The notes beneath the pieces are model-generated. The model worked only from the letters and a program-made list of their open reading frames with translations. It ran no database searches and was not told the origin of the DNA. Made by a program: the position numbers and the translations under genes. This document shows positions 6,251 to 63,967 of a stretch of 64,000 nucleotides of DNA, piece by piece. The DNA is from Nonlabens marinus S1-08 (GTDB lineage Bacteria; Bacteroidota; Bacteroidia; Flavobacteriales; Flavobacteriaceae). How positions within the stretch are numbered: the stretch's first letter is position 1; every line of letters begins with the position of its first letter. Location: positions 2,851,921-2,915,920 of the forward strand of contig NZ_AP014548.1 of the NCBI RefSeq assembly GCF_000831385.1. Direction: 5' to 3'.

Positions 6251-6266
6251 CGCTTTCGCGAAAGCG
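6251..6266. repeat. TTTCGCGAAA palindrome, copy 1 (rfbA/rfbB spacer)
   Basis: A 16-bp perfect palindrome CGCTTTCGCGAAAGCG, located 18 bp upstream of the rfbA start in the leftward operon. No T-run follows, so it is not a classical terminator. Confidence 0.95.
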
Positions 6267-6306
6267 AAAATACCAAAAGCATTTTACTCATTCAACATGC
6301 ATGACG

Positions 6307-7320
6307 CTAACTTCCTAAATAGTCTCTATTATCCAAAAACCAATCTAGGGTCTTTTCTATACCTTCTTCAAAATCGACGCTAGGTTTCCATCCTAGTTCT
6401 CGCTGAATTTTACTGGCATCAATGGCATATCTAAAATCGTGACCTGGACGATCATTTACAAACTTTATTAATTTTCTGGATGTGCCAGAAGGCTTATGTG
6501 ATTTTTTGTCCATCAAATCACAAAGTAGATGAATCAAATCTATATTCTTCCACTCGTTATGGCCACCTATATTATAAGTTTCACCAACCCTGCCATTATG
6601 GAACGCGAGATCAATAGCCCGTGTGTGATCTGCAACGTATAGCCAGTCTCTAGTATAGTTTCCATCACCATAAACCGGAAGTGGTTTCCCTTCTAAAATA
6701 TTCTTAATAAACAACGGAATCAATTTTTCTGGGAAATGGTACGGCCCGTAATTATTGGAACAATTGGAGATGATATATGGAATTTTATAGGTTTCTCCAT
6801 AAGCTCTCACAAAATGATCACTGCTGGCCTTTGATGCACTATAAGGCGAATTAGGGTCGTAGCAAGTTTGCTCAGTAAACAATCCTCTTTCACCAAGACT
6901 GCCATAGACTTCATCAGTACTCACATGGTAAAATAAATGATCAGCACCAAGAGTCCAGTGTTTGCGGCAAACTTCTAATAATTCTACCGTTCCCATAACA
7001 TTTGTTCTCACAAACTGCAAAGGATCAGCAATGGAGCGGTCTACATGCGATTCTGCAGCAAGGTGGATGATATGAGATATTGCATGCTTAGAAAACAGTT
7101 CTTCCAAAAGCTGAGAATCTGTAATATCTCCGTGAATGAATGTATAGTTTAGCTGTTGCTCGACATCACTCAGGTTTTCTAAATTGCCCGCATAAGTCAA
7201 TGCATCTAGGTTGATGATCTTATAATCAGGGTACTTTTGAATAAATAAACGCACTACATGACTTCCTATAAAGCCAGCACCGCCTGTAATTAGTACATGT
7301 TTGGTTATTTCTTGTTGCAT
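6307..7320 (-). CDS. rfbB: dTDP-glucose 4,6-dehydratase
   Basis: Extended SDR that converts dTDP-glucose to dTDP-4-keto-6-deoxyglucose, 337 residues. GGAGFIG (13-19) binds NAD, STDEVYG (134-140) supplies the catalytic Asp136/Glu137 pair, and Y160/K164 form YxxxK. SNNYGPYHFPEKLIP is the RmlB substrate signature. It is upstream of rfbA and rfbC. The spacer on its 5' side (7321-7395) contains an interrupted palindrome element. Secure identification. Confidence 0.97.
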   Translation of the reverse strand: MQQEITKHVLITGGAGFIGSHVVRLFIQKYPDYKIINLDALTYAGNLENLSDVEQQLNYTFIHGDITDSQLLEELFSKHAISHIIHLAAESHVDRSIADPLQFVRTNVMGTVELLEVCRKHWTLGADHLFYHVSTDEVYGSLGERGLFTEQTCYDPNSPYSASKASSDHFVRAYGETYKIPYIISNCSNNYGPYHFPEKLIPLFIKNILEGKPLPVYGDGNYTRDWLYVADHTRAIDLAFHNGRVGETYNIGGHNEWKNIDLIHLLCDLMDKKSHKPSGTSRKLIKFVNDRPGHDFRYAIDASKIQRELGWKPSVDFEEGIEKTLDWFLDNRDYLGS

Positions 7321-7335
7321 TATCTATCTCAATAG

Positions 7336-7394
7336 TTCGCTTTCGTACCACAACAAGTGCGGCATTAACTTCTGTCCTGCGGACAGAAAGCGAA
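7336..7394. repeat. Interrupted ('opened') palindrome in the ugd-rfbB spacer
   Basis: Left arm TTCGCTTTCG (7336-7345) and right arm GAAAGCGAA (7386-7394) are the two exact halves of the dispersed palindrome, held apart by 40 bp. The insert contains a second hairpin, TTCTGTCC-TGC-GGACAGAA (7371-7389). The right arm ends one base before the ugd stop codon. Compare the element at 2985-3048. Confidence 0.6.
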
Positions 7395-7395
7395 A

Positions 7396-8790
7396 TTATC
7401 CTTTACCTATAGCAAAGCCTGTGAATCCAATACCCTCAAGAGCTTGCATATCTAAAATAGCACGACCATCAAAAATAAAGGCCGGTTTGAGCATGTCGAT
7501 ATAAACCTTTGACCAATCGATGGTTTTGAACTCATCCCATTCTGTCATTACAGCGACGGCATGAGCATCCTTAAATAAATCTTCATAATTCTTTGCAACT
7601 GTTACCAGGCTTCTGTTTCTTTCTTCACTTCTTGTGTTTAGATAGTCAAGGTCTGCATAAACCTGCTCTTGGGTGACTTTGGGGTCATAAACTACTATCT
7701 CTGCCTGCTCACTCAATAAATAGTCTGCTACATAAATAGCGGCGGATTCTCGAGTATCATTGGTATCTTTTTTAAAAGCCCAACCTAATAGAACTATTTT
7801 CTTACCATTGACGGTGTTATATAAGGTACTGATGATTTTTTGTGCGAATCGGCGTTTTTGATAATCATTCATCTTGATGACCTGATGCCAATAGTCTGCT
7901 ACTTCATTCAATCCATAAGTCTGACACAAATAGACGAGATTAAGAATATCTTTTTGAAAACAAGAACCTCCAAAACCTACACTTGACTTTAGGAATTTAG
8001 GGCCTATTCTTGAATCCTGTCCTATAGCTCTAGCCACTTCATCCACATCTGCCTCGGTAGCCTCACATAGAGCGCTCAAACTATTGATACTAGATACCCG
8101 TTGTGCAAGGAATGCATTAGCCGTCAATTTAGAAAGCTCAGAAGACCAAACATTGGTCAATAAAATACGTTCTGTTGTGATCCAATTATTATAAACATCA
8201 TGTAGCGCTTGTATGGCCTCTTCACCTTCTAGAGTCCGTTCACCACCTATTAAAACACGGTCTGGTTGGAGCAGGTCTTGTATTGCAGTACCTTCTGCCA
8301 AGAACTCTGGATTAGATAGAACCTGAAATTTCACTCCATTACCACTGCTGGAAAGGATAGACTTCAAGGCTTCGGCAGTTCTTACCGGTAAGGTAGATTT
8401 TTCTACTATGATTTTGTTTGAAGTTGCTACTCTTGCGATCTGTCTAGCACAAAGTTCTATATACTTCAAGTCTGCCGCCATTCCTTTACCGATTCCATAA
8501 GTTTTGGTAGGCGTATTTACCGATATAAAAATCATATCTGCTTCCTGTATTGCCTGATCGACATTGGTACTAAAAATCAGGTTGCGACCTCTAGCTTGAG
8601 CCACTATATCTGATAATCCAGGCTCGTATATAGGTAAGTTATCTAGATTTACATCATTCCAAGCGGCAATGCGTTGCTCGTTTAGATCAACCACGTGGAC
8701 ATCAATATCAGGACACTTTGCTGCGATTACAGCCATAGTAGGACCACCCACATAACCAGCACCAATACAGCATATATTTTTCACTTTCAT
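7396..8790 (-). CDS. ugd: UDP-glucose 6-dehydrogenase
   Basis: Oxidises UDP-glucose to UDP-glucuronate with two NAD+. It has 464 residues with an N-terminal Rossmann motif [12 protein letters not shown] (8-19). [10 protein letters not shown] (160-169), [13 protein letters not shown] with K221/N225, and [10 protein letters not shown] with catalytic Cys277 are all visible. The sequence resembles the animal/plant-like UGDH class (about 460 residues) more than the short bacterial Ugd. It is one of two tandem nucleotide-sugar dehydrogenases, separated from the next by a single base. UDP-glucuronate would feed an acidic polysaccharide (inference). Confidence 0.95.
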
Positions 8791-8791
8791 A

Positions 8792-10083: not shown

Positions 10084-10103
10084 TTCGCTTTCGCGAAAGC
10101 GAA
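10084..10103. repeat. TTTCGCGAAA palindrome, copy 2 (wbpP/wbpO-type spacer)
   Basis: A 20-bp perfect palindrome TTCGCTTTCGCGAAAGCGAA in the 38-bp spacer between two genes of the leftward operon. It lies four bases from the upstream gene's stop and 14 bases before the next start. Confidence 0.97.
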
Positions 10104-13116: not shown

Positions 13117-14934
13117 CTAATTCTTGGATTCGATATATTCATCGACCAATCCCTCCAACAAACTCAACGGTAAAGAACCATTGGTCAATACTACATCATG
13201 AAACACTCTTATATCAAATTTTTCACCCAATTCGGTTTTTGCTTTGTTGCGCAATTCTAGAATTTTATTCATCCCTATTTTATACGCAGTGGCTTGTGAA
13301 GGCATCACAATATGTCGTTCCACCATTTTAACCGCGTCGCTTTCTGCATTAGGAGTGTTTTCTGTGTAATACTTGATACCTTCTTCTCTTGTCCATTTTC
13401 TCGAATGAATTCCTGTATCTACCACAAGACGGCAGGCACGCCACAATTCCATTGCGAGCCTTCCAAAATCGCTATAAGGATCTTTGTAAAACCCAATTTC
13501 CTTAGGAATCAATTCAGAATACAAACCCCACCCCTCGACGTAAGCGGTGTGAAATAAATGCTTACGGAATTCTGGCAAACTGTCCAACTCTTGAGCGATT
13601 GCTATTTGCATATGGTGTCCAGGAATCCCTTCATGATATGCTAGAGCATCCATTTGATAGGTAGGCATCGCTTTCATATCATAAAGATTCGCATAATAAG
13701 TTCCTGGCCTACTGCCATCACTTGCAGGTTGTTGATAAAATGCTTTTCCAGCACTCGCCTCTCTGAAGGGCTCAACTGCTTTCACAACTATGTCGGCTTC
13801 TGGTAATGTGTTGAACAATTCGGGAAGCTTTGCCTTCATTGTTTGGATATGCGCTGTAGCTTCTTTTAAGTACTTAGCTTTTCCGGCTTCTGTATTCTCG
13901 TAGTAAAACTGATCATCGTCTCTCATGAACGCAAAGAAATCTTGAAGAGACCCTTCAAATTTCACTTGTTTCATGATTCCCTTCATTTCCTCATGAATAC
14001 GCGCCACTTCGCTAAGTCCAAATTCATGAATCGCATCAGCACTCAGGTCTGTTGTGGTTGTACGCTTTAAAGCATACTCATAGAATTCTTTACCTTTTGG
14101 AAATTTCCAAACCCCATCTTCTATCGTGGCTCTTTGTTGCTGATCTTCTAAGGCTAGAATTAAATTCTCGTAGGCAGGTTTTACATGCTGCACAAGAGCC
14201 ATTTTAGCCGACTTCATCAATTCAGCTTTTTTACTTTTACTCAATTTGATCTTTGCAATTTTGTCTTCAAAATCAGCTAGCAGTGTGCTTTTTTGATTCG
14301 AATTTTCAAAGGGTTCGCCCATCAGTAAATTGCGAGAATCTTTCAATACCTTTTCGTATACAAATCTTGGTAATAAAATACCATTGCTCTCCCTTAATTG
14401 CAAGCCTTCAACAAGGTCGCTAAAAAGAGGTTCTATCCCTTCTAATCTAGAGATATAAGCCTCTGCATCTTCTTCGTTATCAATAAGATGCATATTGATC
14501 AAAAAGGCTGGTACTTCTGCGTGCATCCCGTGCATTTGGTTAACGGGATAGGTATACAATCGGTACTCATAATCTTCAATAGCCTGCTCCTGCAGATTCT
14601 TATACAGTTTATAGCTCAGCAAATCTTGCCCCTCTAACGCCGCCGACTTGATCGTATCTTTCAGGTACGCCAATCTAGATTCTGCCAGTTTTCTATCCTC
14701 TAACTCCCGCTCTGAGGATATATCCGTCCATTTTCCATAATCCGTTTTGATTCCCATACTGGTTTGCATTTCGGGATCGCGGGATAAATCTTGCTGAAAT
14801 TGAACTTCCAACCAATCATTGAATTGTTGGGCTATTTGTTGTTTTTCCGCTTTCGCGAAAGCGGAACTATCATTCTTCTCCTTGCAAGAACCTAGAATCA
14901 TTAGCAGGCTGATAAATATTGTTTTTTTCATCAT
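13117..14934 (-). CDS. DUF885 family lipoprotein (putative metallopeptidase-like)
   Basis: A 605-residue protein with a lipoprotein signal (lipobox LGSC, Cys17), so probably anchored in the outer or inner membrane on the periplasmic side. The DUF885 hallmark HEGIPGHHMQIA (434-445) is present, with YVEGWGLYSE downstream; HExxxxHH suggests a metal site and peptidase-like activity, though function is not established for most members. A palindrome copy encodes residues 25-30 (AFAKAE) just after the lipid-anchored Cys, in the tether. It ends the leftward run that starts at pabB and lies five bases from dsbD, so it is probably the same operon. Confidence 0.88.
   Translation of the reverse strand: MMKKTIFISLLMILGSCKEKNDSSAFAKAEKQQIAQQFNDWLEVQFQQDLSRDPEMQTSMGIKTDYGKWTDISSERELEDRKLAESRLAYLKDTIKSAALEGQDLLSYKLYKNLQEQAIEDYEYRLYTYPVNQMHGMHAEVPAFLINMHLIDNEEDAEAYISRLEGIEPLFSDLVEGLQLRESNGILLPRFVYEKVLKDSRNLLMGEPFENSNQKSTLLADFEDKIAKIKLSKSKKAELMKSAKMALVQHVKPAYENLILALEDQQQRATIEDGVWKFPKGKEFYEYALKRTTTTDLSADAIHEFGLSEVARIHEEMKGIMKQVKFEGSLQDFFAFMRDDDQFYYENTEAGKAKYLKEATAHIQTMKAKLPELFNTLPEADIVVKAVEPFREASAGKAFYQQPASDGSRPGTYYANLYDMKAMPTYQMDALAYHEGIPGHHMQIAIAQELDSLPEFRKHLFHTAYVEGWGLYSELIPKEIGFYKDPYSDFGRLAMELWRACRLVVDTGIHSRKWTREEGIKYYTENTPNAESDAVKMVERHIVMPSQATAYKIGMNKILELRNKAKTELGEKFDIRVFHDVVLTNGSLPLSLLEGLVDEYIESKN
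14845..14866. repeat. TTTCGCGAAA palindrome, copy 3 (inside DUF885 gene)
   Basis: A 22-bp perfect palindrome (TTCCGC arm form), read in the FAKA frame as SAFAKAE within the tether after the lipobox. Confidence 0.97.
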
Positions 14935-14939: not shown

Positions 14940-16982
14940 TTAGTTGTTAAGTGCTGATTTGAGCCAATTGGCATATTCTGAAACATCGGGTGTGTAACCT
15001 ATAGGCGCTACCAAATCATTCCCATCTGCATCGACCAAGGCATAAAAAGGTTGGGCATTCACCTGATATTTTTCAATCTGGAGATCGCTCCATTTATTAC
15101 CTATAGTTCTTATCTTTTTTCCAGTCACATTAGATATATACTGCTCTCCAGTAGGTAAATCTTCGCGTTCATCAACATATAAAGAGATGAGCACTATTTC
15201 GTTTTTCAAAAGATCCAAAACTTCTGGCTCTCCCCAAACGCGTTCTTCCATTTTACGACAATTGACACATGCCCAGCCTGTAAAGTCGATTAAGGCTGGC
15301 TTCCCTACCTCCTGAGCATATTCTAATCCTGCTTCATAATTATCAAAAGCAACAATATCATGAACGGCGAGATGCGCTCCTTCAGGTAAATCAATAGTGT
15401 CTGCACTAGCGGTACCCGCAAATCCATTAGGAGACTCACTGTACGTCATGGGTGGTGGGAAACCGCTAATCAATTTTAAAGGTGCGCCCCACAATCCTGG
15501 AATCAAATAAAGGGTAAAGCAGAAGGTCAAAATAGCGAGCAGCAATCGTCCCACTGAAATCGATTGATCTTTATCATCGTGAGGCAGTCGCAGTTTACCA
15601 AATAAGTAGATCGTCATGGCACCAAAAATGGCAATCCAAATTGCAATGAACAACTCCCGCTGTATCCAACCGGCTTGCCATACAAGGTCTGCATTAGATA
15701 AAAACTTAAAGGCAAATGCCAATTCCAAGAATCCTAGAAAGACCTTTACTGTATTTAACCATCCACCAGATTTAGGTAAATTGTTCATCCAGCTAGGGAA
15801 AATAGCAAATAAGGCAAATGGTATTCCCAATCCAAAACCGAAACCAGCCAGTCCAACACTCAAAGCGGTAGCACCACCATCAGATGAAAGTACGCTTCCT
15901 AAAACACCGCCTATTACAGGACCCGTACAGGAAAAAGAGACCAAAACTAAGGTGAGCGCCATAAAAAAAACGCCTACTACCCCACCAACCGTAGAGGCTT
16001 TATCTACTTTGTTAATCAAAGAATTGGGCATAGTTATTTCAAATGCTCCAAAGAAGCTAATCGCAAAAACTACAAATATCACAAAGAAGAAAATATTCAA
16101 ATACGGGTTGGTACTGAATTCATTGAATATATCTGGGGATACTGATTGAAATAAGTGAAAAGGCAAACTACACAATACGTAGATGAGCAAGATGAAGAAC
16201 CCGTAAAGCAAACCTTGAAATTTTCCTTTGGTTTTATTCTCACTTTGCTTGGTAAAGAATGATACTGTCATTGGGATCATGGGATACACGCAAGGAGTGA
16301 GTAATGCACTGAACCCTGCTAGCAAACACAAAATAAAAATGGTGCTTAAATCGTTCGAATCTTCCTCAGTAAAGCCTGTTGTTTCAACATCTATTGATTT
16401 GTTACTAGTTGGGGTAGAGCTAGACAGATTAGATAAATCCGGAGCGGTTGCCGTTAAAGGTTCTTGATCATTCTCATAGTAGGTATCGATAATCGTGGTG
16501 ACCTCATCGCCTATAACAGCGTCAGGGTTTAATTTATAGATCAAAACCTCTGGAGTACCCTGAATACAGCGCTCATCGTCACAAACCATAAAAACGGCCT
16601 CAGCGATGATGTAGCTCAGGTCTCTATTTTGAACCTTTATTTTTTGCTTAAATACAGCCTGATTTTTAAACTGCAACACATCTGCTCCCCATACTTCTGT
16701 ATATTCTGCATAGGTTCCAATTTCTTCATTTGAGCCTAGAAGTTGGAAATTTCCATCGCTTTCATAGAATCTCAATTGGGTAGGTGTAGGACCTATTTCT
16801 GCATCGATGGCGACCTGAGAGTATATATGCCAGCCAGGCTCTAGAATTGCTGTAGTCACCAACTCATATTGATCGTCTCCCAGATCTTGTACAGCTGTTT
16901 CCCAAGAAGTTGGATCAAACACTTGTGCCTGAATCGTTATACCAGCAAATAGGATGGTAAAAGCTATAAGTAGCTTTCTCAT
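14940..16982 (-). CDS. dsbD: Thiol:disulfide interchange protein DsbD
   Basis: Inner-membrane electron conduit that passes reducing power from cytoplasmic thioredoxin to the periplasm. It has a signal peptide, an N-terminal periplasmic domain (about 20-170), then eight or so membrane segments with ALLTPCVYPMIPMT and SCTGPVIGGV, the two Cys-bearing CcdA-like halves, and a C-terminal thioredoxin domain with GWACVNCRKME. The start at 16982 (MRKLLIAF) makes an ATGA overlap with the tilS stop; an in-frame ATG at 16991 is the alternative. About 680 residues, normal for Bacteroidota DsbD. Confidence 0.93.
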   Translation of the reverse strand: MRKLLIAFTILFAGITIQAQVFDPTSWETAVQDLGDDQYELVTTAILEPGWHIYSQVAIDAEIGPTPTQLRFYESDGNFQLLGSNEEIGTYAEYTEVWGADVLQFKNQAVFKQKIKVQNRDLSYIIAEAVFMVCDDERCIQGTPEVLIYKLNPDAVIGDEVTTIIDTYYENDQEPLTATAPDLSNLSSSTPTSNKSIDVETTGFTEEDSNDLSTIFILCLLAGFSALLTPCVYPMIPMTVSFFTKQSENKTKGKFQGLLYGFFILLIYVLCSLPFHLFQSVSPDIFNEFSTNPYLNIFFFVIFVVFAISFFGAFEITMPNSLINKVDKASTVGGVVGVFFMALTLVLVSFSCTGPVIGGVLGSVLSSDGGATALSVGLAGFGFGLGIPFALFAIFPSWMNNLPKSGGWLNTVKVFLGFLELAFAFKFLSNADLVWQAGWIQRELFIAIWIAIFGAMTIYLFGKLRLPHDDKDQSISVGRLLLAILTFCFTLYLIPGLWGAPLKLISGFPPPMTYSESPNGFAGTASADTIDLPEGAHLAVHDIVAFDNYEAGLEYAQEVGKPALIDFTGWACVNCRKMEERVWGEPEVLDLLKNEIVLISLYVDEREDLPTGEQYISNVTGKKIRTIGNKWSDLQIEKYQVNAQPFYALVDADGNDLVAPIGYTPDVSEYANWLKSALNN

Positions 16983-18310
16983 TTTTTCCATGTAATTTTC
17001 AATATTTCGTTTGTTTTGTCGCTTACTGTAGCGTGCCTGCTCGATCGAACGCCTACCACCCAAAGCACATCTTGTGGTGTGCATAACATCAAGACTCTTT
17101 TTTTCTCAGTTCTAGACAGTTTTTTGTTCGTTAGAATATCACTTACGAGTTGGGAACCCTTCATGCCAAATGGTTCTAAACGGTCACCTTTATGCCAGGC
17201 TCGTAAAGTTAACGGATAATGCAATCGTTCCTTATCCAACCACAGCACATTTTTAGCCGATTGAGTTTTTATAAAGCCAACAGGATCATCCATTCTGATG
17301 GTTTCTAAAGTCAAGCTAGAATTCTGTAGGTCTATGGATGTAGTTTCTGGTAACAAATACCATTTTTTGGTAAGCGGTTCTGTTATTTTTTCTAAGCGCA
17401 ATAAGTCCCTGTCTTTAAGCAAAATAAAAGTAGCGTTAGACAAATATTTCCCAGTTTCCGCACCCATAAGTGCCACTACTTCGTCTGTTTGATTAAACCC
17501 GTATTCTTCTAGAAGATAGAATAGATATGCCTTGAAATTAGGATACTTCCTAACCTCATCCAGATGTAAATCAATTCCCGTGGTGCTGATGGTAGTTACG
17601 CTTTCGCGAAAGCGGGCTACCGCATCTTTCAAGATCAAATCTATGTCTTGTAAATAGTTTAACGTCTGTGAAAAATGTCCTCTCAATTGAGGTAAGGCGT
17701 CATGCAAGACGGGCAATGCTTGGTTTCGCAGTTTATTTCTTTGATAATCGTTTCTTTGATTGCTGGAATCTTCCCTCCATGTGATCTGATTTTGCTGGGC
17801 AAATTCGAGAATGTCATTTCTTGAAAATTTTAAAAGCGGTCTGAGTAATCCAGGACTTTGCTCTGGTATTCCTGTCAAACCGGCGAGTCCAGTCCCACGG
17901 TTTAAATTGATCAAAAAAGTCTCTAATTGATCATCCAGGTGGTGCGCTGTCAACACTGCAGCTAAATCGTTTGCTTTTAGTAATTGGTCAAACCACTCAT
18001 AGCGCAATTTCCTAGCCGCCATTTGGGTAGAGATGCCCAACTTCTCCACCACTTTCTTTGTCTTAAAATGCTGCACATGAAGATCTACCGATAATTGTTG
18101 CGCCAGATTCCTTACAAAAAGTTCATCGGCATCACTTTCTTCCCCTCGTAAATGAAAATTGACATGAGCCATTTGAAAGCTGATCTCGCTGGACTTAAGT
18201 AGATGAGCCAATACCACACTGTCCAGTCCACCGCTGATCGCTAGCAAAACATCCTGCTTCAAAAGTTGAGGAAATTGATCCTGTAGGTGTAGTTGAAAGG
18301 CTTGTTGCAT
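16979..18310 (-). CDS. tilS: tRNA(Ile)-lysidine synthetase
   Basis: Modifies C34 of the CAU-anticodon tRNA-Ile to lysidine using ATP; essential in most bacteria. It has 443 residues. The PP-loop SGGLDS (26-31) lies in the N-terminal ATPase domain, followed by HLRGEESDADE and DDQLETFLINLNRG; the C-terminal TilS domain ends with SRTEKKRVL and WVVGVRSS. A palindrome copy lies around residues 232-237 (ARFRES), in the linker between the N-terminal ATPase and central domains. It follows pabB by ten bases and overlaps dsbD by four. Confidence 0.95.
   Translation of the reverse strand: MQQAFQLHLQDQFPQLLKQDVLLAISGGLDSVVLAHLLKSSEISFQMAHVNFHLRGEESDADELFVRNLAQQLSVDLHVQHFKTKKVVEKLGISTQMAARKLRYEWFDQLLKANDLAAVLTAHHLDDQLETFLINLNRGTGLAGLTGIPEQSPGLLRPLLKFSRNDILEFAQQNQITWREDSSNQRNDYQRNKLRNQALPVLHDALPQLRGHFSQTLNYLQDIDLILKDAVARFRESVTTISTTGIDLHLDEVRKYPNFKAYLFYLLEEYGFNQTDEVVALMGAETGKYLSNATFILLKDRDLLRLEKITEPLTKKWYLLPETTSIDLQNSSLTLETIRMDDPVGFIKTQSAKNVLWLDKERLHYPLTLRAWHKGDRLEPFGMKGSQLVSDILTNKKLSRTEKKRVLMLCTPQDVLWVVGVRSSRHATVSDKTNEILKITWKK
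17599..17614. repeat. TTTCGCGAAA palindrome, copy 4 (inside tilS)
   Basis: A 16-bp perfect palindrome read in the RFRES frame (ARFRESV) of TilS, in an inter-domain segment. Confidence 0.96.
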
Positions 18311-19735: not shown

Positions 19736-21985
19736 TTAAAATCTATACTGCAGGATTCCTCTAATAAAAAAAGGAGTTCCTGGAGTGAAATGAATTTCTT
19801 CTACTGACGCTGTTTCATTTTGCAATCTAGATTCAGTGGCAAACTGGGTTTCATTCCATTCTACATCAAATAGGTTTTGAACAGCAAATCCTGCTCGCAA
19901 ATGATCTGTGACATCATAATTGACATTGAGGTCTGAAACAAAATATCCTTCTGCAACAATGCTGTTGTCTTCATTTGCTGGGCGGTCTCCAATGTATCGG
20001 TATCTGATTCCTGCATTGAAACGGTTCCAGTCTTTCAAGCTCAAACCTCCTGTAGATGTAAACTTAGGTGCTAATGGTATTAAGTCTTGGCCATCGGGCT
20101 CGTTAATTGCTCTAGCGTGTGCGTAGTTTACATCTGTATCTAAAAACAAGTGTTTGGAAAGCTGGTAGCGTAAGCTCACATCAAATCCAAAACGCTCTGT
20201 TTCACCGCTAGGTTCTACAATTCCAGCATCTCCAACATACACAAATTCTTGCTCCAGAAATAAGTACCAAAGTGCTGTGTTTACAATCATGCGGTTGGTA
20301 GGCTTCCATACAAAACCTAAATCTGAGCCATATGATTTGGGTAAGATATCGTCTGCTGTTTGCTGTAAGACCACCCGAGTGTCATTACTGTGAAAGCCCA
20401 CTCCATTTTTGAAATACAACTGGAAGTTTTCTGAGACTCTGTAATTAAAATTCAACTTAGGTAACAGTGCCGTTTCTGATTGAGCTTGCGTGTCGTACAA
20501 GGTACTAAGGGCGTCCTTATAGGTAAACTTGAAGTGCTCTAACCTCAATCCTGCATCAATCAAGAAGTCGTTTACATACCAGGTGGCTCCTACAAACCCA
20601 GACGTATTCGTTTCATTAATATCCCCTAGCTGAATGTTTTCAAGTGTGGTTCTCCTGTTCAAAGTTCTGGATAGCTCACTGCCCTCAGTACGATCATTAC
20701 GCAATCTGAGTCCAGCAGTCAGGTCGAGCTTGTAATCTGACAAGCTAGTCCTATACGTGTACGCCGCGTCAAAACCAGCTAAATCACGAGATTCTTGTTG
20801 CTTGATTTGATCGCCATTTACCGGATCTTCGAGGAAAAAGGTAAAGTTAGAGAATAGCAGGAAATCATACTTAGAATAATACAAATGTGTACTGAACTGC
20901 TCGTTATCGCTCAAAGCCATATCGTAATTGATGTTCACGCTGGTTCTTGAGGTCTCGCCACCTTCCGTATCATCAATTGCTCCAAATCTCCCGATCAAGC
21001 CTCTATCCACGGCACGCTGCGGGATTTGGCCGCTAGCATCCCACTCACTATCAAAATGAGAAATACTCACACCCAATTCATTCCCAGCATCTGATATATA
21101 ATTCAGCTTCCCGAATAAGTTTACCCTATCAAAATTTTGCGGACTGTCAAACGGACCATCAAATGTCAAGTACTCTGTTGCTATGTAAGCGCTGGTGTTT
21201 GCGTTGTCCAGTACTTGCACTAGCCCTACATATCGCTGGTAATTAAAGTCCCCAATTTCAGCATTTATGACATTTTCACGAATAACATCTCTTGTGCGAA
21301 AATCTACATGACCTGCAGTGGCAAAATTACCAATGGATTTATCATAGCTTCCTTTCCCATAAGAGATATTCTCAATAGTTTCTGGAATGACAAAATGTAG
21401 ATCTGCATATCCTTGACCATGCGCATGCGATACCATATTGACAGGCATTCCATCCACACTTATCGCCACATCAGTCCCGTGATCGATGTCAAAACCTCTT
21501 AAAAATAATTGTTCGGCTTTACCGCCACCCGCATGTTGACCTATAAATAGTCCAGGCACTGTGCGCAGCACTTCTTGAGTAGAGGTTACTGGGTTCACTT
21601 CCAGATCGGCTTGAGTGATGGTATTGAGGACGTCTAACTCGTTAGTGATGGTAACAGCTTGCAAGTCAATGGATGCTTCCAATAATACAATTTGAAGCAC
21701 TTCAGACTCTTCTGTTATCGCTTTCGCGAAAGCGGCATAACCCAACTTTGAGAACCTCAATTCATCACCTTCCTCTACCTGATCAATGGTAAAAAAGCCT
21801 TTACTATTCGTATGGGTGTGGGTTCCTGATTTCAGGTGCATCACATAAACATCCTTTAATGGCTTGTTATTTTCATCCACCACATAACCGGTAATGGTAT
21901 GGGCAAATAAAACCTGAGTACTTAAAATGAATAGCGAGAAGAATAAAAGCTGCGAACAAGCTTTTTTATAAAAGAGAATTGTCAT
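19736..21985 (-). CDS. TonB-dependent outer-membrane receptor
   Basis: A 749-residue protein. It has a signal peptide (about 1-28), a CarboxypepD_reg-like domain (about 30-110) typical of Bacteroidota receptors, a plug domain with VLRTVPGLFIGQHAGGGKAEQLFLRG (in parts) and a C-terminal beta-barrel ending in an aromatic residue (GILQYRF). His-rich short stretches GTHTHTNS and HAHGQGYADLHF are visible; whether they bind metal is unknown. No SusD partner is adjacent, so a glycan role is not favoured; the substrate is not identifiable. It is a single-gene unit with a terminator, and it carries one palindrome copy (AAFAKA) near residues 84-89. Confidence 0.92.
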   Translation of the reverse strand: MTILFYKKACSQLLFFSLFILSTQVLFAHTITGYVVDENNKPLKDVYVMHLKSGTHTHTNSKGFFTIDQVEEGDELRFSKLGYAAFAKAITEESEVLQIVLLEASIDLQAVTITNELDVLNTITQADLEVNPVTSTQEVLRTVPGLFIGQHAGGGKAEQLFLRGFDIDHGTDVAISVDGMPVNMVSHAHGQGYADLHFVIPETIENISYGKGSYDKSIGNFATAGHVDFRTRDVIRENVINAEIGDFNYQRYVGLVQVLDNANTSAYIATEYLTFDGPFDSPQNFDRVNLFGKLNYISDAGNELGVSISHFDSEWDASGQIPQRAVDRGLIGRFGAIDDTEGGETSRTSVNINYDMALSDNEQFSTHLYYSKYDFLLFSNFTFFLEDPVNGDQIKQQESRDLAGFDAAYTYRTSLSDYKLDLTAGLRLRNDRTEGSELSRTLNRRTTLENIQLGDINETNTSGFVGATWYVNDFLIDAGLRLEHFKFTYKDALSTLYDTQAQSETALLPKLNFNYRVSENFQLYFKNGVGFHSNDTRVVLQQTADDILPKSYGSDLGFVWKPTNRMIVNTALWYLFLEQEFVYVGDAGIVEPSGETERFGFDVSLRYQLSKHLFLDTDVNYAHARAINEPDGQDLIPLAPKFTSTGGLSLKDWNRFNAGIRYRYIGDRPANEDNSIVAEGYFVSDLNVNYDVTDHLRAGFAVQNLFDVEWNETQFATESRLQNETASVEEIHFTPGTPFFIRGILQYRF
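21719..21734. repeat. TTTCGCGAAA palindrome, copy 5 (inside TonB receptor gene)
   Basis: A 16-bp perfect palindrome read in the FAKA frame (AAFAKAI) within the CarboxypepD-like domain. Confidence 0.96.
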
Positions 21986-23601: not shown

Positions 23602-24915
23602 CTATGAATCGGCAATTTCGCTTACCGGTTTAGGCTCTTGATTGCTCTTTTTATAGGGTCTAATGATCAAACGTGCTGCTCTATCAAAATTGAAATAGTT
23701 ATAAGTCCAATTCAAGAACACCACAATCCGGTTGCGAACTCCTACCAGAAAGTACAAATGCACTCCCAACCAAGCGAACCAAGCCATGAATCCTCCCAAA
23801 GTGAACTTACCTATATCTGCTACCGCTCGATTACGACCCACGGTAGCCATCGATCCTTTGTCAAAATAAGAGAACGGCTTCATTTCTTTGCCCTCAGACA
23901 TCCTTATGAGATTCTTTGCTAGGTTTTTCCCTTGCTGTATGGCAGGTTGTGCTACTTGAGGATGCCCGTGAGGGAAATCATCTGTCTTCATTTGAGCAAT
24001 ATCACCTACAGCATACACATTATCAGTGCCTTTCACTTTATTGAAACGATCCACTATCAGACGATTGCCCTTTTCTGATATTGCGGTTTCTGAAAACCCC
24101 TTTGGGTGAGCACCTGTAACGCCAGCACTCCATATAAAGGTGGCGGTTTCCAACTCCATCCCGCTTTTAGTGCTCACAATGTCATCGTTATAATCCGTCA
24201 CTAATTCATTCAAATGGATTTGTACTCCCAATTCTTTCAGGTATTTTTCCGCTTTCGCGGAAGCTTTTTTACTGAAAGCAGACAACACTCGATCTTCACC
24301 ATCCAACAGATGGATTTCCATGAAATCTGGATTAAGATCTGGGTAATCATTTTCAAGAACTCCATTTTTGAACTCGGCAAAAGCTCCAGATAATTCTACG
24401 CCTGTAGGGCCAGCACCAGACATAATGATGCGCATGAGCTTTTGCTGCTCCTTAGGGTCATCTGTAATGGTGGCTTTTTCTAGGTTTTGAAGCATCAAGC
24501 TACGTATGTCCAGTGATTCTGGAACAGACTTCATGGACAGGGCATTTTTTTCAATCTGATCATTCCCGAAGAAATTCGTTTTAGTCCCGGTAGCAATAAT
24601 CAAATGATCGTAAGAGATATCGCCGATGCTGGTGGTTACATAATTTTCTTTTATGTTCACCTGCTCCACTTCCGTCAAGCGGAATAAATAATCCTGATTT
24701 TCATCTACAATACTTCGCAAAGGAAACGCGATAGAGTCAGGTTCTAAGCCGCTGGTGGCCACTTGATACAATAGTGGTTGAAAGGTGTGGTAGTTGTGCC
24801 GATCTAGTAATACTACTTGAAATTTGTGTTCTGTAAGCTTTCGCGAAAGCGTAACACCGCCAAAACCTCCTCCTACTATGACGATACGAGGGTGTGGACT
24901 GGTGGGAATTTGCAT
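23602..24915 (-). CDS. ndh: Type II NADH dehydrogenase (NDH-2)
   Basis: Single-subunit, non-proton-pumping NADH:quinone oxidoreductase on the inner membrane, 437 residues. IVIVGGGFGGVTLSRKL (11-27) is the FAD-binding motif, SGAGPTGVELSGA the NADH site, and NVYAVGDIAQ the second FAD motif. A hydrophobic C-terminal stretch (FMAWFAWLGVHLYFLVG) fits membrane attachment. Unusually it carries two palindrome copies: an intact one encoding LSRKL within the first helix of the FAD fold, and a decayed one near residues 218-223 (ASAKAE). Confidence 0.92.
   Translation of the reverse strand: MQIPTSPHPRIVIVGGGFGGVTLSRKLTEHKFQVVLLDRHNYHTFQPLLYQVATSGLEPDSIAFPLRSIVDENQDYLFRLTEVEQVNIKENYVTTSIGDISYDHLIIATGTKTNFFGNDQIEKNALSMKSVPESLDIRSLMLQNLEKATITDDPKEQQKLMRIIMSGAGPTGVELSGAFAEFKNGVLENDYPDLNPDFMEIHLLDGEDRVLSAFSKKASAKAEKYLKELGVQIHLNELVTDYNDDIVSTKSGMELETATFIWSAGVTGAHPKGFSETAISEKGNRLIVDRFNKVKGTDNVYAVGDIAQMKTDDFPHGHPQVAQPAIQQGKNLAKNLIRMSEGKEMKPFSYFDKGSMATVGRNRAVADIGKFTLGGFMAWFAWLGVHLYFLVGVRNRIVVFLNWTYNYFNFDRAARLIIRPYKKSNQEPKPVSEIADS
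24247..24264. repeat. Decayed TTTCGCGAAA palindrome, copy 6 (inside ndh)
   Basis: TTCCGCTTTCGCGGAAGC differs from the palindrome by one substitution in the core, which changes the FAKA-frame Phe to Ser (ASAKAE). It is the only clearly decayed copy and lies 590 bp from an intact one in the same gene. Confidence 0.8.
24837..24850. repeat. TTTCGCGAAA palindrome, copy 7 (inside ndh)
   Basis: A 14-bp perfect palindrome GCTTTCGCGAAAGC read in the LSRK frame, immediately after the GGGFGG flavin-binding loop. Confidence 0.95.
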
Positions 24916-50086: not shown

Positions 50087-51162
50087 TAACCAATTGCGTC
50101 GCCATACGTATCCATAGCGTCTTTTCTTATTTCTTTAATTTCTTGATCTGCCTCGATGGGTATAATCATCAAAACGTCCTCTTCGTCTACAATAATATAA
50201 TCCTTGAGACCTTGAACAATCACTTTTTTACCTTTAGCGGTACGGATCATGTTTCTACTTGCATCCCTTGAGGTCACTTGGGCATTTACAATGGCATTTT
50301 GATCTTTAGTTTTATCCAACCTTGAGTACAAACTCCCCCAAGTTCCTACATCGTTCCAGCCAAAGTCTACCGGCAACACATACACGTCTGGACTGCGTTC
50401 CATAACAGCGTAATCGATGGATATGTCTTTGGCTTTGGCATAATTCTCTTCTAAAAATTGTTGTTCTCCAGCTTCATTATAAAACTGCATTCCATTTTGA
50501 AAGAGTTGGTATAATTCTGTTTCCGCTTTCGCGAAAGCGGAAATTACCGCGTCTACAGACCATATAAAAGTACCAGAATTCCATAGAAAATTACCTTCTG
50601 CAACATATTTCTTAGCAGTAGCTAAATCTGGTTTCTCCCTAAACTGTTTCACTTTTTTCACGGAACCCTCTGACTCCTGAAATTCGATATAACCAAATCC
50701 CGTGTTAGGAGAGTCTGGCTCTACCCCCATCGTCATAAGTGCTTCTGGATGATCCTCGCAAAATTGAAAGGCCGTGGTCAAGTCTTTTTGGAATTGATTG
50801 TCGTTTTCAATAAAACTATCGCTGGGAGCTACTATCATCCTAGCTTCCGGATTTTTCTTTTGAACTTTCAGGGCTGCAAGTAAAATACAAGGGGCTGTGT
50901 TGCGCATAGCTGGTTCTGCTACAATATTCTCAGCGAGAATTTCTGGTAGTTGCTGTTGAACCAAATCAATGTAATCTGTGTTAGTTAAAATCAAGATATT
51001 TTCAGTGGGCACCTGTTTCTTCAATCGGTCAAATGTGGTTTGGAGCAAGGATTGGCCTACTCCCAGCATATCATGAAATTGTTTAGGAAAAGATTGACGG
51101 CTCACTGGCCAAAATCTTGATCCCACACCACCAGCCATAATTACTGCATACTTATCACTCAT
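50086..51162 (-). CDS. manC: Mannose-1-phosphate guanylyltransferase
   Basis: Makes GDP-mannose from GTP and mannose-1-P. From the ATG at 51162 it is 358 residues, with AVIMAGGVGSRFWPVSRQSF and PKQF at the active site, and later FREKP and WNSGTFIW typical of the family. It lacks the C-terminal isomerase domain, which is present as a separate gene at 4215-4559. The chosen start makes an ATGA overlap with sprT; the alternative ATG is at 51174. A palindrome encodes SAFAKAE in a surface segment. It provides the substrate for gmd in the polysaccharide operon. Confidence 0.93.
   Translation of the reverse strand: MSDKYAVIMAGGVGSRFWPVSRQSFPKQFHDMLGVGQSLLQTTFDRLKKQVPTENILILTNTDYIDLVQQQLPEILAENIVAEPAMRNTAPCILLAALKVQKKNPEARMIVAPSDSFIENDNQFQKDLTTAFQFCEDHPEALMTMGVEPDSPNTGFGYIEFQESEGSVKKVKQFREKPDLATAKKYVAEGNFLWNSGTFIWSVDAVISAFAKAETELYQLFQNGMQFYNEAGEQQFLEENYAKAKDISIDYAVMERSPDVYVLPVDFGWNDVGTWGSLYSRLDKTKDQNAIVNAQVTSRDASRNMIRTAKGKKVIVQGLKDYIIVDEEDVLMIIPIEADQEIKEIRKDAMDTYGDAIG
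50520..50543. repeat. TTTCGCGAAA palindrome, copy 15 (inside manC), longest copy
   Basis: A 24-bp perfect palindrome, the longest in the window, read in the FAKA frame (ISAFAKAETE). Confidence 0.98.
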
Positions 51163-53687: not shown

Positions 53688-53705
53688 TCGCTTTCGCGAA
53701 AGCGA
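53688..53705. repeat. TTTCGCGAAA palindrome, copy 16 (pyrG/yidC spacer)
   Basis: An 18-bp perfect palindrome TCGCTTTCGCGAAAGCGA, eight bases after the pyrG stop and 70 bp before yidC. No T-run. Confidence 0.97.
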
Positions 53706-55919: not shown

Positions 55920-57915
55920 AGACTTGTACTTCTTCAATACTTAAATCTGGTTGATAACGTAAGATGTAACAAGCCTCATTATAAAAACCTGCCAAAAACC
56001 TCTTGTTGTATTCAAAGCTATTTTCGACCATTACTGTGCGGCCGTTACGCATAGCACTTTCATACAAATTGTCTGCACTGGCCTGTCTCAAAATAACATC
56101 CATTGCAACATCAAATCCTCTAGTGGCATAATCACTAGGTGTAATTCCATGCTTCTTGAAATAATGGCTTGCAAAAATATTCTCGCTACTGGTATTTCTG
56201 TTAATTTGAGGGTACGTGTAGTTAACGGCAGCCAATCCTAAATTATTAATGCTATTATCATCTAGATCCTCCATCCCAACCATGGTGATGTTGTAAGAGC
56301 GTGCCTTTGCACCATAATCAGATACCGCACCTGTAAAAATCTTAGCTTCTTCTGCAGCTAGAATAACTACATTATCTCGATCCTTTACTAGTGGACTGGT
56401 GTACTTGTTACTAGATATGTAATTATTGTCATCAGGATACAACACGGTTGCATTAGGAAACAGCGCTGTAAATTGATTTTTCAATTGTGGCTTCTTATTG
56501 TCGCTGACTATAATAACATTTTTACCCGCGGCAAATCCAACCAAATAATTTTTCAACCGGTTCATCAAGAAGTCTTCGTCTGGCCTAGCTTGAAATAAAT
56601 TCTTGTACAACTTTACATCAGTATTTGTAAGCGGAGAAACAACTGGGATATCATCGTCCTTCAATTCCTTGGCTACGGCTACCACATTTTTAGCCATCAA
56701 TGGGCCAATAACACTGTTGTATTTTTTGAAATCATTATTCCTCACAATACTTATTGCAGTAGACTCATTTTTACCAGTATCAAATACATCAAAATCAACA
56801 GTCACTCCTAGAGCTCTTGCAGAGTCTCGAGCGATCATCATACCACTATAAAAGTCTGTAGCGATTCTCATGGTTTTGTCTGATTTAAGCAATCCTACCA
56901 ACTCATCTCCAGACGCATTTCTTACTGAAAGTGGTAACATGACTGCGATGCGCTGATTCCTGTAGTTCCGAATGCTATCTACAAGCCTAGCATACGTAGC
57001 AGTGCTTTTCCAGGGTGCTGGCGCACCACGCTCCTTCACTCCTTTATAAGGAATTCGCAGCACCATGCCAGATTTCACACCATCTTTCAAGGCAGGATTA
57101 AGTGCAATCAAAGAATCTTTTTTAAGCCCAGTCATTTTTTCTAGACTGTACATGGTCATTTTAGGTTGAACTTGATATTCGACATATTGAAGACTGGCTT
57201 TTTTTGCTTCGCCCTGCTCCGATTTACGGTCAGTTTTGACCTTAGTGACAGAACTTGATGAAATTTCAGTAACTAATGGGCGGATGCTTTCCTCAACCTC
57301 ATAAGGAACATTCAATACCATTCCTTCTTGTAAATCTTCAATTCCTGGATTCAAATCATCCAAAATATCAATAGAAATATTATGCTTCTTAGCAACTCGA
57401 TACTTTCCCTCAGATTTTTGAACACGGTATTTTCCTGGAACTAAGCCTTCTTGACCGGCATATTCTGGTACAGCGTTCGTACTAACTGCGACTGATTCTA
57501 CAGCTGCGCCTTTCTTAAAAACAGGAATAAGAATCCTGTCTCCTTTTTGAAGCGACTCAGAATACAGTTTTTTATTAGCCTCCTTGATGTCTAGAACGGT
57601 GACCTTGTATTCTTTGGCCAGTGTGTACAGCGTTTCTTTACGTTTGACTTTATGCTCTTCGTAGCGCTCTATGGGTCTTTTTGTGATCGTTTTATTTGAC
57701 TTTGGAATTAACAAAGTCGCCCCTTTTTTCAAACCCATTTTTAGGTCTGGGTTGAGCTCGATCAGTTGCTCTGCAGTAATGTTATACTGGTTAATGATTT
57801 TGTAAACGGTATCTCCTTGTTCCACAACATGGCGTTCATAGCCTTGAACTATGGAGGAGTTCGCTTTCGCGAAAGCGAAACAAACCATCATTATTACTGC
57901 TATATATTTTATCAT
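55906..57915 (-). CDS. LysM-repeat protein fused to a periplasmic-binding-protein domain
   Basis: A 669-residue secreted protein. The signal peptide (about 1-21) is followed by four LysM-like repeats at about 28-72 (VVEQGDTVYKIINQYNI), 84-134 (KVKRKETLYTLAKEYKV), 162-206 and 246-293, then a type I periplasmic-binding fold (about 322-660; RIATDFYSGMMIARDSAR, SVIGPLMAKNVVAVAKEL). The LysM part should bind peptidoglycan; the ligand of the binding domain is unknown, and no ABC permease is nearby. A palindrome encodes FAFAKANS inside the signal peptide. It starts one base after guaA. Confidence 0.88.
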   Translation of the reverse strand: MIKYIAVIMMVCFAFAKANSSIVQGYERHVVEQGDTVYKIINQYNITAEQLIELNPDLKMGLKKGATLLIPKSNKTITKRPIERYEEHKVKRKETLYTLAKEYKVTVLDIKEANKKLYSESLQKGDRILIPVFKKGAAVESVAVSTNAVPEYAGQEGLVPGKYRVQKSEGKYRVAKKHNISIDILDDLNPGIEDLQEGMVLNVPYEVEESIRPLVTEISSSSVTKVKTDRKSEQGEAKKASLQYVEYQVQPKMTMYSLEKMTGLKKDSLIALNPALKDGVKSGMVLRIPYKGVKERGAPAPWKSTATYARLVDSIRNYRNQRIAVMLPLSVRNASGDELVGLLKSDKTMRIATDFYSGMMIARDSARALGVTVDFDVFDTGKNESTAISIVRNNDFKKYNSVIGPLMAKNVVAVAKELKDDDIPVVSPLTNTDVKLYKNLFQARPDEDFLMNRLKNYLVGFAAGKNVIIVSDNKKPQLKNQFTALFPNATVLYPDDNNYISSNKYTSPLVKDRDNVVILAAEEAKIFTGAVSDYGAKARSYNITMVGMEDLDDNSINNLGLAAVNYTYPQINRNTSSENIFASHYFKKHGITPSDYATRGFDVAMDVILRQASADNLYESAMRNGRTVMVENSFEYNKRFLAGFYNEACYILRYQPDLSIEEVQVYERN
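57860..57879. repeat. TTTCGCGAAA palindrome, copy 17 (in the signal peptide of the LysM protein)
   Basis: A 20-bp perfect palindrome TTCGCTTTCGCGAAAGCGAA read in the FAFAKAN frame; it supplies the end of the hydrophobic core and the cleavage region. Confidence 0.97.
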
Positions 57916-61144: not shown

Positions 61145-61164
61145 TTCGCTTTCGCGAAAGCGAA
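61145..61164. repeat. TTTCGCGAAA palindrome, copy 18 (fahA/bshC spacer)
   Basis: A 20-bp perfect palindrome TTCGCTTTCGCGAAAGCGAA, 12 bases after the fahA stop. No T-run. Confidence 0.97.
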
Positions 61165-62527: not shown

Positions 62528-62554
62528 ATCCATGCTAACATAAGGGTTGTAACG

Positions 62555-62562
62555 TACTTTTG
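62555..62562 (+). promoter_or_regulatory. -7 box of glyA
   Basis: TACTTTTG, a perfect TAnnTTTG, 18 bp before the ATG at 62581. It overlaps the TTG at 62560 that could be mistaken for a start codon. Confidence 0.5.
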
Positions 62563-62580
62563 TATTTAAATTTTTCACAA

Positions 62581-63858
62581 ATGGCAGCAATGGATAACCA
62601 GATATTTGATTTAATAGAATTAGAGGGAAAAAGACAAGTTTCAGGACTAGAATTAATAGCAAGTGAAAACTATGTGAGTGATAATGTACTGCGAGCAGCA
62701 GGCTCTATTTTGACCAATAAATACGCAGAAGGCTATCCAGGTAAAAGGTATTATGGAGGCTGTGAAGTCGTTGATGAAATAGAAAATCTAGCGATCGATC
62801 GCGCAAAATTACTTTTCAATGCAGAATATGTAAACGTACAACCACACTCTGGTAGCCAAGCAAACACTGCTGTATTTCATGCCTGCTTAAAACCAGGTGA
62901 CAAGATATTAGGTTTTGATTTGTCCCATGGTGGACATTTGACACATGGCTCACCTGTTAACTTTTCAGGAAAACTCTATGAAACTTCATTTTACGGAGTC
63001 GAAAAAGAAACAGGCCTACTGGATTACGATAAAATTCAAGAGAATGCGGAGAGGGAACAACCTAAATTAATCATTGCGGGTGCATCTGCCTATAGTAGAG
63101 AAATTGATTATAAGAGATTCAGAGAAATAGCAGACTCTGTGAATGCTATTTTACTAGCAGATATTGCCCATCCAGCGGGATTGATTGCGAAAGGACTTCT
63201 TCAAGATGCAGTAGAACATGCCCATATTTGTACCAGTACCACTCACAAGACCTTAAGAGGACCACGTGGGGGTATCATCATCATGGGAGCTGATTTTGAA
63301 AATCCATTTGGAGACAAGCTCAAGAATGGCAATCTGAAAATGATGTCTAGCTTGTTGAACAGTGGTGTTTTCCCAGGAAATCAAGGTGGTCCATTAATGC
63401 ACATCATAGCAGCTAAAGCAGTCGCATTTGAAGAGGCATTGCAGGATGATTTTTTACATTACACGGTCCAGACTAAGAAGAATGCAGCAGCCTTAGCCAA
63501 TTCACTTAAAGCGAAAGGCTATAACATCATATCTGGTGGAACTGATAACCACATGATGCTTATCGATCTACGCAACAAAAATATTACAGGTAAGGATGCA
63601 GAAATTGCACTCGGCAAGAGTCACATTACTGTGAATAAAAACATGGTACCATTTGATAGCGAATCTCCATTTGTAACCAGTGGTATCCGCATAGGAACAG
63701 CTGCGATAACAACTCGAGGTATAGACACGCAAGACATGGAAAAGGTTGCAAGTTGGATCGACGCAGTAATCAATAACAAGGAAGATGAAGAAAAGCTCAA
63801 GGAAATCGGTGAAGAAGTCGCAGAATTTACCGCAGGTTATCCTATATTTTCCAAATAA
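62581..63858 (+). CDS. glyA: Serine hydroxymethyltransferase
   Basis: PLP enzyme that interconverts serine and glycine and feeds C1 units to folate; 425 residues from the ATG at 62581 ([12 protein letters not shown]); a second ATG at 62590 is equally possible. [47 protein letters not shown] and [13 protein letters not shown] with PLP Lys223 are all in place. It is followed by a strong terminator and is probably monocistronic. Confidence 0.97.
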
Positions 63859-63896
63859 GCAGCGATTAAGCACACAATAGCGCCCACCACTTCAAG

Positions 63897-63923
63897 CCCG
63901 ATACCAACGTATCGGGTTTTTTT
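63897..63923 (+). terminator. Rho-independent terminator of glyA
   Basis: Stem CCCGATA, loop CCAACG, stem TATCGGG, then seven T, 38 bp after the stop codon. Confidence 0.93.
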
Positions 63924-63951
63924 ATGTCCCTATTTTATTCCTGTAAAGAAG

Positions 63952-63967
63952 TTCGCTTTCGCGAAAG
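63952..63967. repeat. TTTCGCGAAA palindrome, copy 19 (right edge)
   Basis: TTCGCTTTCGCGAAAG: full left arm but only a 12-bp perfect palindrome, because the right arm ends in GAAAG-AAT. A half-decayed intergenic copy beyond the glyA terminator. Confidence 0.9.

Follow-up and report, generated by a model that had tools for sequence, protein, structure and literature searches.

A regularly spaced 16-bp palindrome in Nonlabens and Dokdonia, possibly a self-DNA recognition signal

A stretch of 64,000 nucleotides from the chromosome of Nonlabens marinus S1-08 (NZ_AP014548.1, positions 2,851,921 to 2,915,920; hereafter the window, with positions counted from its first letter) raises the question why one palindromic word, TTTCGCGAAA, recurs in it every few kilobases, both within genes and between them. 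An earlier reading of the sequence alone had noticed 18 intact copies of this core and one decayed copy and had offered four possible roles without choosing among them, namely an uptake signal, a site for a nucleoid or segregation protein, a methylation site and a self-spreading element. Our follow-up suggests that throughout the genomes of Nonlabens and Dokdonia the motif serves to recognise self-DNA, most likely as a signal for DNA uptake in natural transformation, an interpretation to which we assign a probability of roughly 0.45. Of the other roles, that of a nucleoid or segregation site keeps some probability, methylation has been weakened and self-spreading is not favoured.

Abundance, anatomy and spacing of the palindrome

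All 18 intact cores were found again where the sequence-only reading had placed them, and the decayed copy corresponds to GCTTTCGCGGAAGC at 24251-24264, which carries a single mismatch. In 100 dinucleotide shuffles of the window the core appeared 0.07 times on average (maximum 2), in agreement with the earlier estimate of well below 0.1 expected copies. Likewise, the symmetry of the 18 sites proved perfect over 12-24 bp when re-measured, and the first 6 kb of the window holds only the opened form CTTCGCGAAG, near 335. Two parts of the earlier description needed amendment: the 20-mer TTCGCTTTCGCGAAAGCGAA, thought to be the most frequent form, is a common extension but a minority form (5 of 18 window sites and 30 of the 115 sites of our first genome sample), and while the largest gap between neighbouring intact cores is indeed 5,336 bp, the smallest is 1,415 bp, the reported gap of 0.6 kb existing only if the decayed copy is counted.

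The complete genome (one contig of 2,915,920 bases) contains 774 TTTCGCGAAA cores, or one per ~3.8 kb, compared to 5 for the same word written backwards, and 728 copies of GCTTTCGCGAAAGC, compared to 0 for its backwards control. The counts are thus far from expectation and the enrichment spans the genome, the opposite of the two outcomes that the sequence-only reading had regarded as refuting. Site properties were analyzed in two separate samples of this genome, the window together with stretches L081-L100 (464 kb) and stretches L252-L271 (400 kb), which combined cover 864 kb or 30% of the genome. The 115 cores of the first sample include 114 CTTTCGCGAAAG, 111 GCTTTCGCGAAAGC and 96 CGCTTTCGCGAAAGCG. 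Counted as 14-mers, this sample holds 111 exact, 11 one-mismatch and 7 two-mismatch copies, compared to none exact and an average of 0.08 one-mismatch copies for 60 permuted palindromes used as a control, and in the second sample 106 cores, 94 exact 14-mers and 19 one-mismatch forms were present.

The repeated unit is a 16-bp palindrome, CGCTTTCGCGAAAGCG, within a symmetric, T-rich and C-poor flank of ~40 bp, which extends ~20 bp to either side. In a profile of 219 sites, eight positions of each half hardly vary, the search word itself setting five of these, T is preferred at -9 to -11 and at -19/-20 and A at -12, and C is scarce to about -26. Beyond about 26-35 bp from the centre the composition nears background and the copies share little sequence. 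The flanks are similar in coding and intergenic sites, and the preference at -9 is for A in Dokdonia and for T in Nonlabens marinus S1-08. No excess of matching between left and right flanks was detected in five species sets (largest z 1.8 in 90 tests), which argues that each half is read separately from the DNA by half-site contact, and not as a hairpin. The information per site amounts to ~38 bits, compared to 11.8 bits that would suffice to specify that many sites, a figure based on 237 sites with up to two mismatches from the 16-mer and thereby inflated for the core. The window gave no match in Rfam, and the earlier remark that terminator T-runs are absent was borne out, runs of at least five T within 15 bp past the palindrome being depleted (5 of 219 sites in the 864 kb compared to 156 of 2,050 random positions). 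An avoidance of TCGCGA outside the motif, striking in the window, fades in the 464-kb sample (40 found and ~57 expected under a trinucleotide model) and was not retained as a feature.

The spacing of the sites is far more even than random placement would give. The 116 gaps taken from the first 100 listed genome places and the window (a span that six of the sampled stretches, L081-L083 and L252-L254, overlap or touch) have a mean of 3,528 bp and a coefficient of variation (CV) of 0.567; none of 10,000 Poisson nulls was equally even, and only 5 of these gaps (4.3%) are shorter than 1 kb, compared to 24.7% under Poisson. The origin-terminus comparison proposed by the sequence-only reading was negative, with no density trend visible over 40 stretches of 20 kb (dnaA at 1,936,455). 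A null weighted towards intergenic DNA has a mean CV of 1.00, and the value of 0.54 observed in the first sample was reached in 0 of 2,000 such nulls. Similar results were obtained with the second sample (CV 0.52; 0 of 86 gaps below 1 kb), and the counts per 20 kb in the 40 stretches have a mean of 5.1 and a variance-to-mean ratio of 0.53 (p 0.007).

With respect to genes the sites are not as indifferent as had been supposed. Intergenic positions account for 53 of 115 sites in the first sample (17% non-coding) and for 49 of 106 in the second (15%), together 102 of 221 sites in ~16% non-coding sequence (combined p about 1e-26), which corresponds to an intergenic density 4.3 times and about 5 times that of coding sequence, respectively; genes were called by a simple script that missed some, and part of the intergenic sites may therefore be coding. 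Among the 119 coding sites the frame is read as AFAKA in 72, and 18 lie in the first 60 nt of a gene where about 6 are expected, some enrichment at gene starts. The types of intergenic region are used roughly in proportion to their length, with 36 sites in tandem minus (38.9 expected), 19 in tandem plus (22.9), 27 in divergent (19.7) and 15 in convergent regions (15.6).

Taxonomic range, conservation in place and mobile DNA

The closest named relatives of a helicase encoded in the window are Nonlabens, and all 22 other genomes drawn from this genus carry 319-893 cores each; 36 other genomes of the same family or order carry 0-12. A search of 397 family genomes with the 14-mer identified six as rich, the genome studied here, three further Nonlabens, G234 (408 copies) and G250 (857 copies). 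Copies number 1-19 in 74 of the remaining 391 genomes and are absent from the others; as almost all family genomes lack any copy of the backwards control, these low counts are in places above chance. In 395 genomes from across the phylum only our own genome was rich and 21 hold 1-6 copies, so that ~790 Bacteroidota genomes outside the rich set, tallied without overlaps, contain 0-19 copies each. Of 49 named genomes, 43 have 0-10 copies; the exceptions are three Nonlabens and Flavobacteria bacterium BBFL7 with 551-664, Dokdonia sinensis with 857 and D. pacifica with 903. The motif places of G250 coincide with those of the D. sinensis genome. Among the genomes searched the motif is abundant only in Nonlabens, two Dokdonia species and one further genus (G234). 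In a tree of 110 UvrD sequences 31 rich tips fall into one 40-tip clade (support 0.925), which also holds the motif-poor Kordia and Leeuwenhoekiella. The motif may have been gained once and then lost, or gained or passed on repeatedly, and this tree of a single gene fits both histories. A search of 80 loci (7.8-15 kb each) for other palindromic dialects, as 10-mers present at least three times in one locus, returned only the known motif and A+T-rich words, and the samples from Leeuwenhoekiella and Aquimarina contain no equivalent motif. Two repeats of other kinds were seen in these surveys: G+C-rich words, GCCGTGGCCG and CCTCGAACGT, with ~20 copies over both strands in a sample of 35% G+C (L201-L207 of G131), and several 10-mers repeated 6-12 times in 14 kb of Dokdonia pacifica (L027), possibly a tandem array.

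Within Nonlabens the motif is conserved in place. Of 257 site comparisons in 18 stretches, made in both directions and hence interdependent, 132 were exact, 33 had one mismatch, 14 had two and 78 were worse. Where the flanks are 60-70% identical the motif is exact in 47% of 96 comparisons, compared to 1.1% of 10,087 control words, and 47 of the 125 non-exact aligned places differ by just one or two bases. The single mismatches are concentrated at two half-site positions (32 of 33), with a C-to-T change at the central CpG recurring in 14 of the 33. The window sites with cores at 35865, 38994, 44330 and 46998 occur in intact, decayed and absent states among relatives, and for that at 32099 none of 20 stretches matched the flanks on both sides. 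In some relatives without the motif, a linker of variable length occupies the corresponding place.

The motif is also sparse in the two mobile regions examined. The two lowest of the 40 stretches, with 1 and 2 sites compared to the mean of 5.1, both carry mobile-element genes: L096 contains integrase, C5 methyltransferase and HATPase genes and has its lone site at the edge of the stretch, and L090 contains conjugative transfer genes including a TraG-like one. In motif-poor genera some of the copies lie within related islands that encode RND efflux systems, multicopper oxidases and P-type ATPases, which suggests that metal-resistance islands carrying the motif passed through a motif-rich host. 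Copper and heavy-metal efflux islands with several motif copies were seen in at least eight genomes (L101-L111 and L113-L115; G131, G122, G145, G259, G245, G380, G033 and G390), and a pair of sites in a repeated 933-bp arrangement occurs in G145, G259, G131, G122 and G204. As a separate observation, a ParB_N domain in a frame of 602-616 aa (G000:C1:1269093-1269371), with homologues in rich and poor genera (G015, G019, G460, G033 and G447), lies in G000 ~9 kb from the conjugative-transfer stretch and is perhaps part of an integrative element.

Phages also carry the motif. In IMG/VR the 16-mer is present in 30 contigs, of which 7 are high in G+C and carry a single copy that could be due to chance. 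At least two cores are present in the examined stretches of 19 of the 23 lower-G+C contigs, and the stretches show one site per 8.3 kb when one ascertained copy per contig is excluded, a density that is an upper bound because the contigs were picked by the 16-mer and only the stretches around the matches were examined. Terminase, portal, head and tail genes mark several of these contigs as tailed phages, and an integrase was found in one (30 proteins scanned). One metagenomic family of tailed phages (L213, L216, L222, L225, L226, L233, L235 and L238; major head, portal and tape measure genes, and the integrase in one contig), with relatives at 57-64% nucleotide identity, keeps some sites in place: the first place is exact throughout, the second is exact in L233 and has one mismatch in L235, and the third is intact in both of these and decayed by one base in the others. 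The Nonlabens phage P12024S has no copy of the motif and no integrase among its 59 annotated features. The temperate Haemophilus phage HP1, for which integrase and attP are annotated, carries 17 exact uptake cores of its host in 32 kb, and carriage by temperate phages would therefore fit a genuine uptake signal.

A self-DNA label and its rivals

Under the favoured reading, a two-fold symmetric protein of the surface or periplasm would read the double-stranded site, fragments bearing a site would be taken up or recombined preferentially, and motif-bearing alleles would then replace motif-free ones in a process of molecular drive. This drive would be local, as a second site on the same fragment would add nothing and close neighbours would decay, and we propose that the resulting density of about one site per fragment length produces the even spacing. 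The redundancy of close sites, the permissive placement, the excess conservation and the sparsity in two mobile regions match what biased uptake and recombination predict, and an excess such as that of 38 over 11.8 bits would arise more readily through drive than at ordinary binding sites. It is the combination of even spacing, bias towards intergenic DNA and permissive codons, sparsity in two mobile regions, clade restriction, T-rich flanks and the phage parallel that makes an uptake-like signal the best fit among the roles proposed earlier. PMC7811141 describes uptake sequences as relatively evenly distributed, as expected from drive, scarce in new segments and in coding sequence, and flanked by AT-rich DNA, and PMC2397512 places uptake cores at permissive locations with a spacing near the conversion-tract length. 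Riemerella columbina, which PMC7965970 assigns to Flavobacteriaceae, is described there as preferring its own DNA, and self-preference thus exists among flavobacteria.

The motif resembles the uptake signal sequence (USS) of Haemophilus and the DNA uptake sequence (DUS) of Neisseria in its hundreds of exact copies, its distribution, relatively even as is described for them, its intergenic and permissive-codon bias, its high conservation in place and, judging by the two sparse mobile regions, possibly its under-representation in new segments. It shares with USS the AT-rich flanks and the carriage by a temperate phage. Unlike both, it is a perfect 16-bp palindrome of about 38 bits, occurs once per ~3.8 kb and not per ~1 kb, and belongs to a different phylum. 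In being a highly iterated, clade-specific palindrome it is similar to HIP1 of cyanobacteria (GCGATCGC), from which it differs in sequence, in length (16 compared to 8-10 bp) and in having no universal methyltransferase among the three families tested. One-mismatch forms are also rarer here (30 compared to 205 exact 14-mers) than for the Synechocystis 10-mer GGCGATCGCC (1830 compared to 5648), although the word lengths differ. The earlier comparison with HIP1 and uptake sequences therefore holds for behaviour and not for form, HIP1 having another sequence and a link to a methyltransferase and uptake sequences being non-palindromic. The motif thus behaves like an uptake or an iterated-palindrome system; it departs from the former in its symmetry, and as a representative of the latter it would be one for which the three families tested gave no methyltransferase common to all rich genomes.

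Several points weigh against an uptake signal. Known uptake sequences are non-palindromic (PMC1939737). The islands are not motif-free, one of the two sites in L090 standing beside a TraM-like gene, and in other species the spacing is less even, with CVs of 0.69 in G004 (58 gaps), 0.75 for the 14-mer in D. sinensis (42 gaps) and 0.55 in D. pacifica (19 gaps), for which 19, 305 and 26 of 10,000 nulls, respectively, were as even. That phages keep some sites in place could reflect a direct advantage to the phages themselves instead. The ComEC family occurs in all 36 genomes searched, in motif-poor genera just as in rich ones, and so does not discriminate, and no competence report for Nonlabens or Dokdonia was found in open-licence literature listings. 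The same open-licence literature gave no relevant report by title for the exact motif in five spellings, and nothing on the motif among work on palindromes or iterated palindromes of Nonlabens, Dokdonia or flavobacteria, on natural transformation of Dokdonia or on DNA methylation of Nonlabens; PMC3478194, which came up for Dokdonia and palindromes, concerns CRISPR and GO terms. We give even odds to the broader statement that the motif labels self-DNA as a palindrome read by a dimeric protein, is near-regular in chromosomes and is carried by tailed phages and transferred metal-resistance islands; within the literature searched, such a label would have no precedent in kind or in Bacteroidota.

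The main rival is a chromosomal landmark read by a dimer, that is, a site bound by a protein particular to this clade (Noc- or MatP-like) that organises or segregates the chromosome and would need such a mark every few kilobases, which we regard as possible though rather doubtful. Noc-binding sites and parS are palindromes of 14-16 bp with TTTC/GAAA half-sites that are read by dimers; they are distributed unevenly relative to the origin and are served by a dedicated ParB-family protein. The motif is of similar size and symmetry, and the 40-bp footprint with T-rich flanks about one helical turn apart, the regular spacing along the chromosome and the retention of the motif in place by some phages are all consistent with such a protein. 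Compaction sites should, moreover, exceed Haemophilus uptake sites in evenness (PMC1939737). The motif differs from Noc sites and parS in its far higher copy number and its 2-bp instead of 4-bp centre, and no origin bias is visible over the 40 stretches. Of 23 motif-rich genomes, 19 have one copy of ParB_N, and additional copies are found in 3 of 13 motif-poor genomes as well; no extra family member was common to the 23 rich genomes searched, which gives no support to a shared ParB/Noc system. In addition, conservation at 38 bits exceeds the 11.8 needed, and site-poor regions are tolerated. A second rival is a Chi-like signal at which a recombination nuclease would stop or switch, and which as a palindrome would be active from either direction. 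Chi in E. coli has a density of a similar order to the one site per ~3.8 kb found here, selection against long unprotected stretches would yield even spacing, and phages could profit from such a signal. Recombination nucleases that respond to Chi are, however, expected to be general, and the near relatives Kordia and Leeuwenhoekiella hold just 0-10 copies, and the Nonlabens phage P12024S none. In form, the 16 near-invariant base pairs with a T-rich flank are far larger than Chi, a short word read as a single strand (PMC1939737, from a table and the title of a reference). Chi is also asymmetric, strand bias is undefined for a palindrome, and altogether a Chi-like role appears unlikely.

A methylation mark held by an orphan methyltransferase, as for HIP1, would account for the palindrome, the high copy number and the clade restriction. 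According to PMC4390886, a matching methyltransferase accompanies highly over-represented sequences in every cyanobacterial genome that has them, and the recurrent C-to-T change at the central CpG (14 of 33 single-mismatch comparisons) also counts in favour of such a mark. However, a search of 36 genomes, 23 of them rich (G011, G013 and G021 were not included), found that PF00145 is missing from 10 of the rich genomes, PF01555 from 12 and PF02086 from 18, so that none of the three families is universal among them, and G007, G008 and G010 lack all three yet carry 700, 791 and 602 cores. TCGCGA outside the motif is not enriched either, at the 40 copies against ~57 expected given above, and we consider this explanation very improbable. 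Least credible of all is a self-spreading palindrome, similar to repetitive extragenic palindromes (REP), Rickettsia palindromic elements (RPE) or miniature inverted-repeat transposable elements (MITE), or an RNA hairpin or terminator, for which the dispersed and often intergenic palindrome might speak. Unlike such elements, the copies share little sequence past ~26 bp from the centre and reach background composition past about 26-35 bp, although clean insertions were not systematically searched, and the motif is conserved in place, the 47 one- or two-base variants among non-exact places included. A hairpin or another RNA role is disfavoured by the absent covariation of the flanks and the absent Rfam match in the window, and a terminator or promoter by the depletion of T-runs and the length-proportional use of intergenic types, convergent regions (15 found, 15.6 expected) not being preferred.

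Sites of the window and meaning of the motif

The individual sites of the window illustrate this placement. Intergenic palindromes lie at 6251-6266 (by the simple gene caller; core at 6254, symmetry 16 bp), 28325-28340, 53689-53704, 61147-61162 and 63954-63969, the last with its right arm degraded beyond GAAAG, and that at 38991-39006 occupies a divergent intergenic region upstream of a UvrD-like helicase gene, with an intact copy just upstream in 6 other Nonlabens. The site at 10086-10101 is intergenic or at the extreme start of a gene, and that at 32096-32111 is intergenic or at the start of a DUF6090 gene. Close to gene starts are also the sites at 14848-14863 (46 nt within a minus-strand DUF885 gene), 24836-24851 (codon ~24 of an NDH-2-like gene), 57862-57877 (codon ~6 of a LysM gene) and 46995-47010 (codon ~8 of a phosphodiesterase gene), the last being intact in 3 other Nonlabens, decayed in 5 and absent in 1. 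Further within genes are those at 17599-17614 (TilS-like gene, 16979-18310), 21719-21734 (TonB-dependent receptor gene), 26910-26925 (adh_short gene; 14-mer with one mismatch) and 50524-50539 (nucleotidyltransferase gene), which has the longest symmetry of the window with 24 bp. The corresponding place of the site at 35862-35877, within a peptidase M1 gene, is intact in 7 other Nonlabens and has one mismatch in an eighth, and that of the site at 44327-44342, within a glycosyltransferase gene, is intact in 5 (62-72% flank identity), has one mismatch in 2 and is absent in 3. Between 28410 and 32929 the window contains six adjacent minus-strand open reading frames of 237-261 aa, of which the one tested (31390-32145) matches DUF6090, and the motif sites beside them, at 28328 and 32099, are alike over nearly 20 nt on the right, as if duplicated.

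Known uptake sequences come from Pasteurellaceae and Neisseriaceae, and what HIP1-type palindromes do is still an open question. A strict, regularly spaced 16-bp palindrome offers a clean case in which models of drive, chromosome organisation and repair predict different outcomes. As a protein landmark, the motif would represent a new binding system that spans the whole chromosome. As an uptake label it would be new to this bacterial lineage, would account for which DNA is exchanged among marine flavobacteria and may provide a simple means of transforming them. More generally, a self-DNA label would define a barrier or a highway for gene flow among these bacteria, and the motif may mark DNA that was once in these hosts, such as the copper and metal efflux islands of other genera and the phages.

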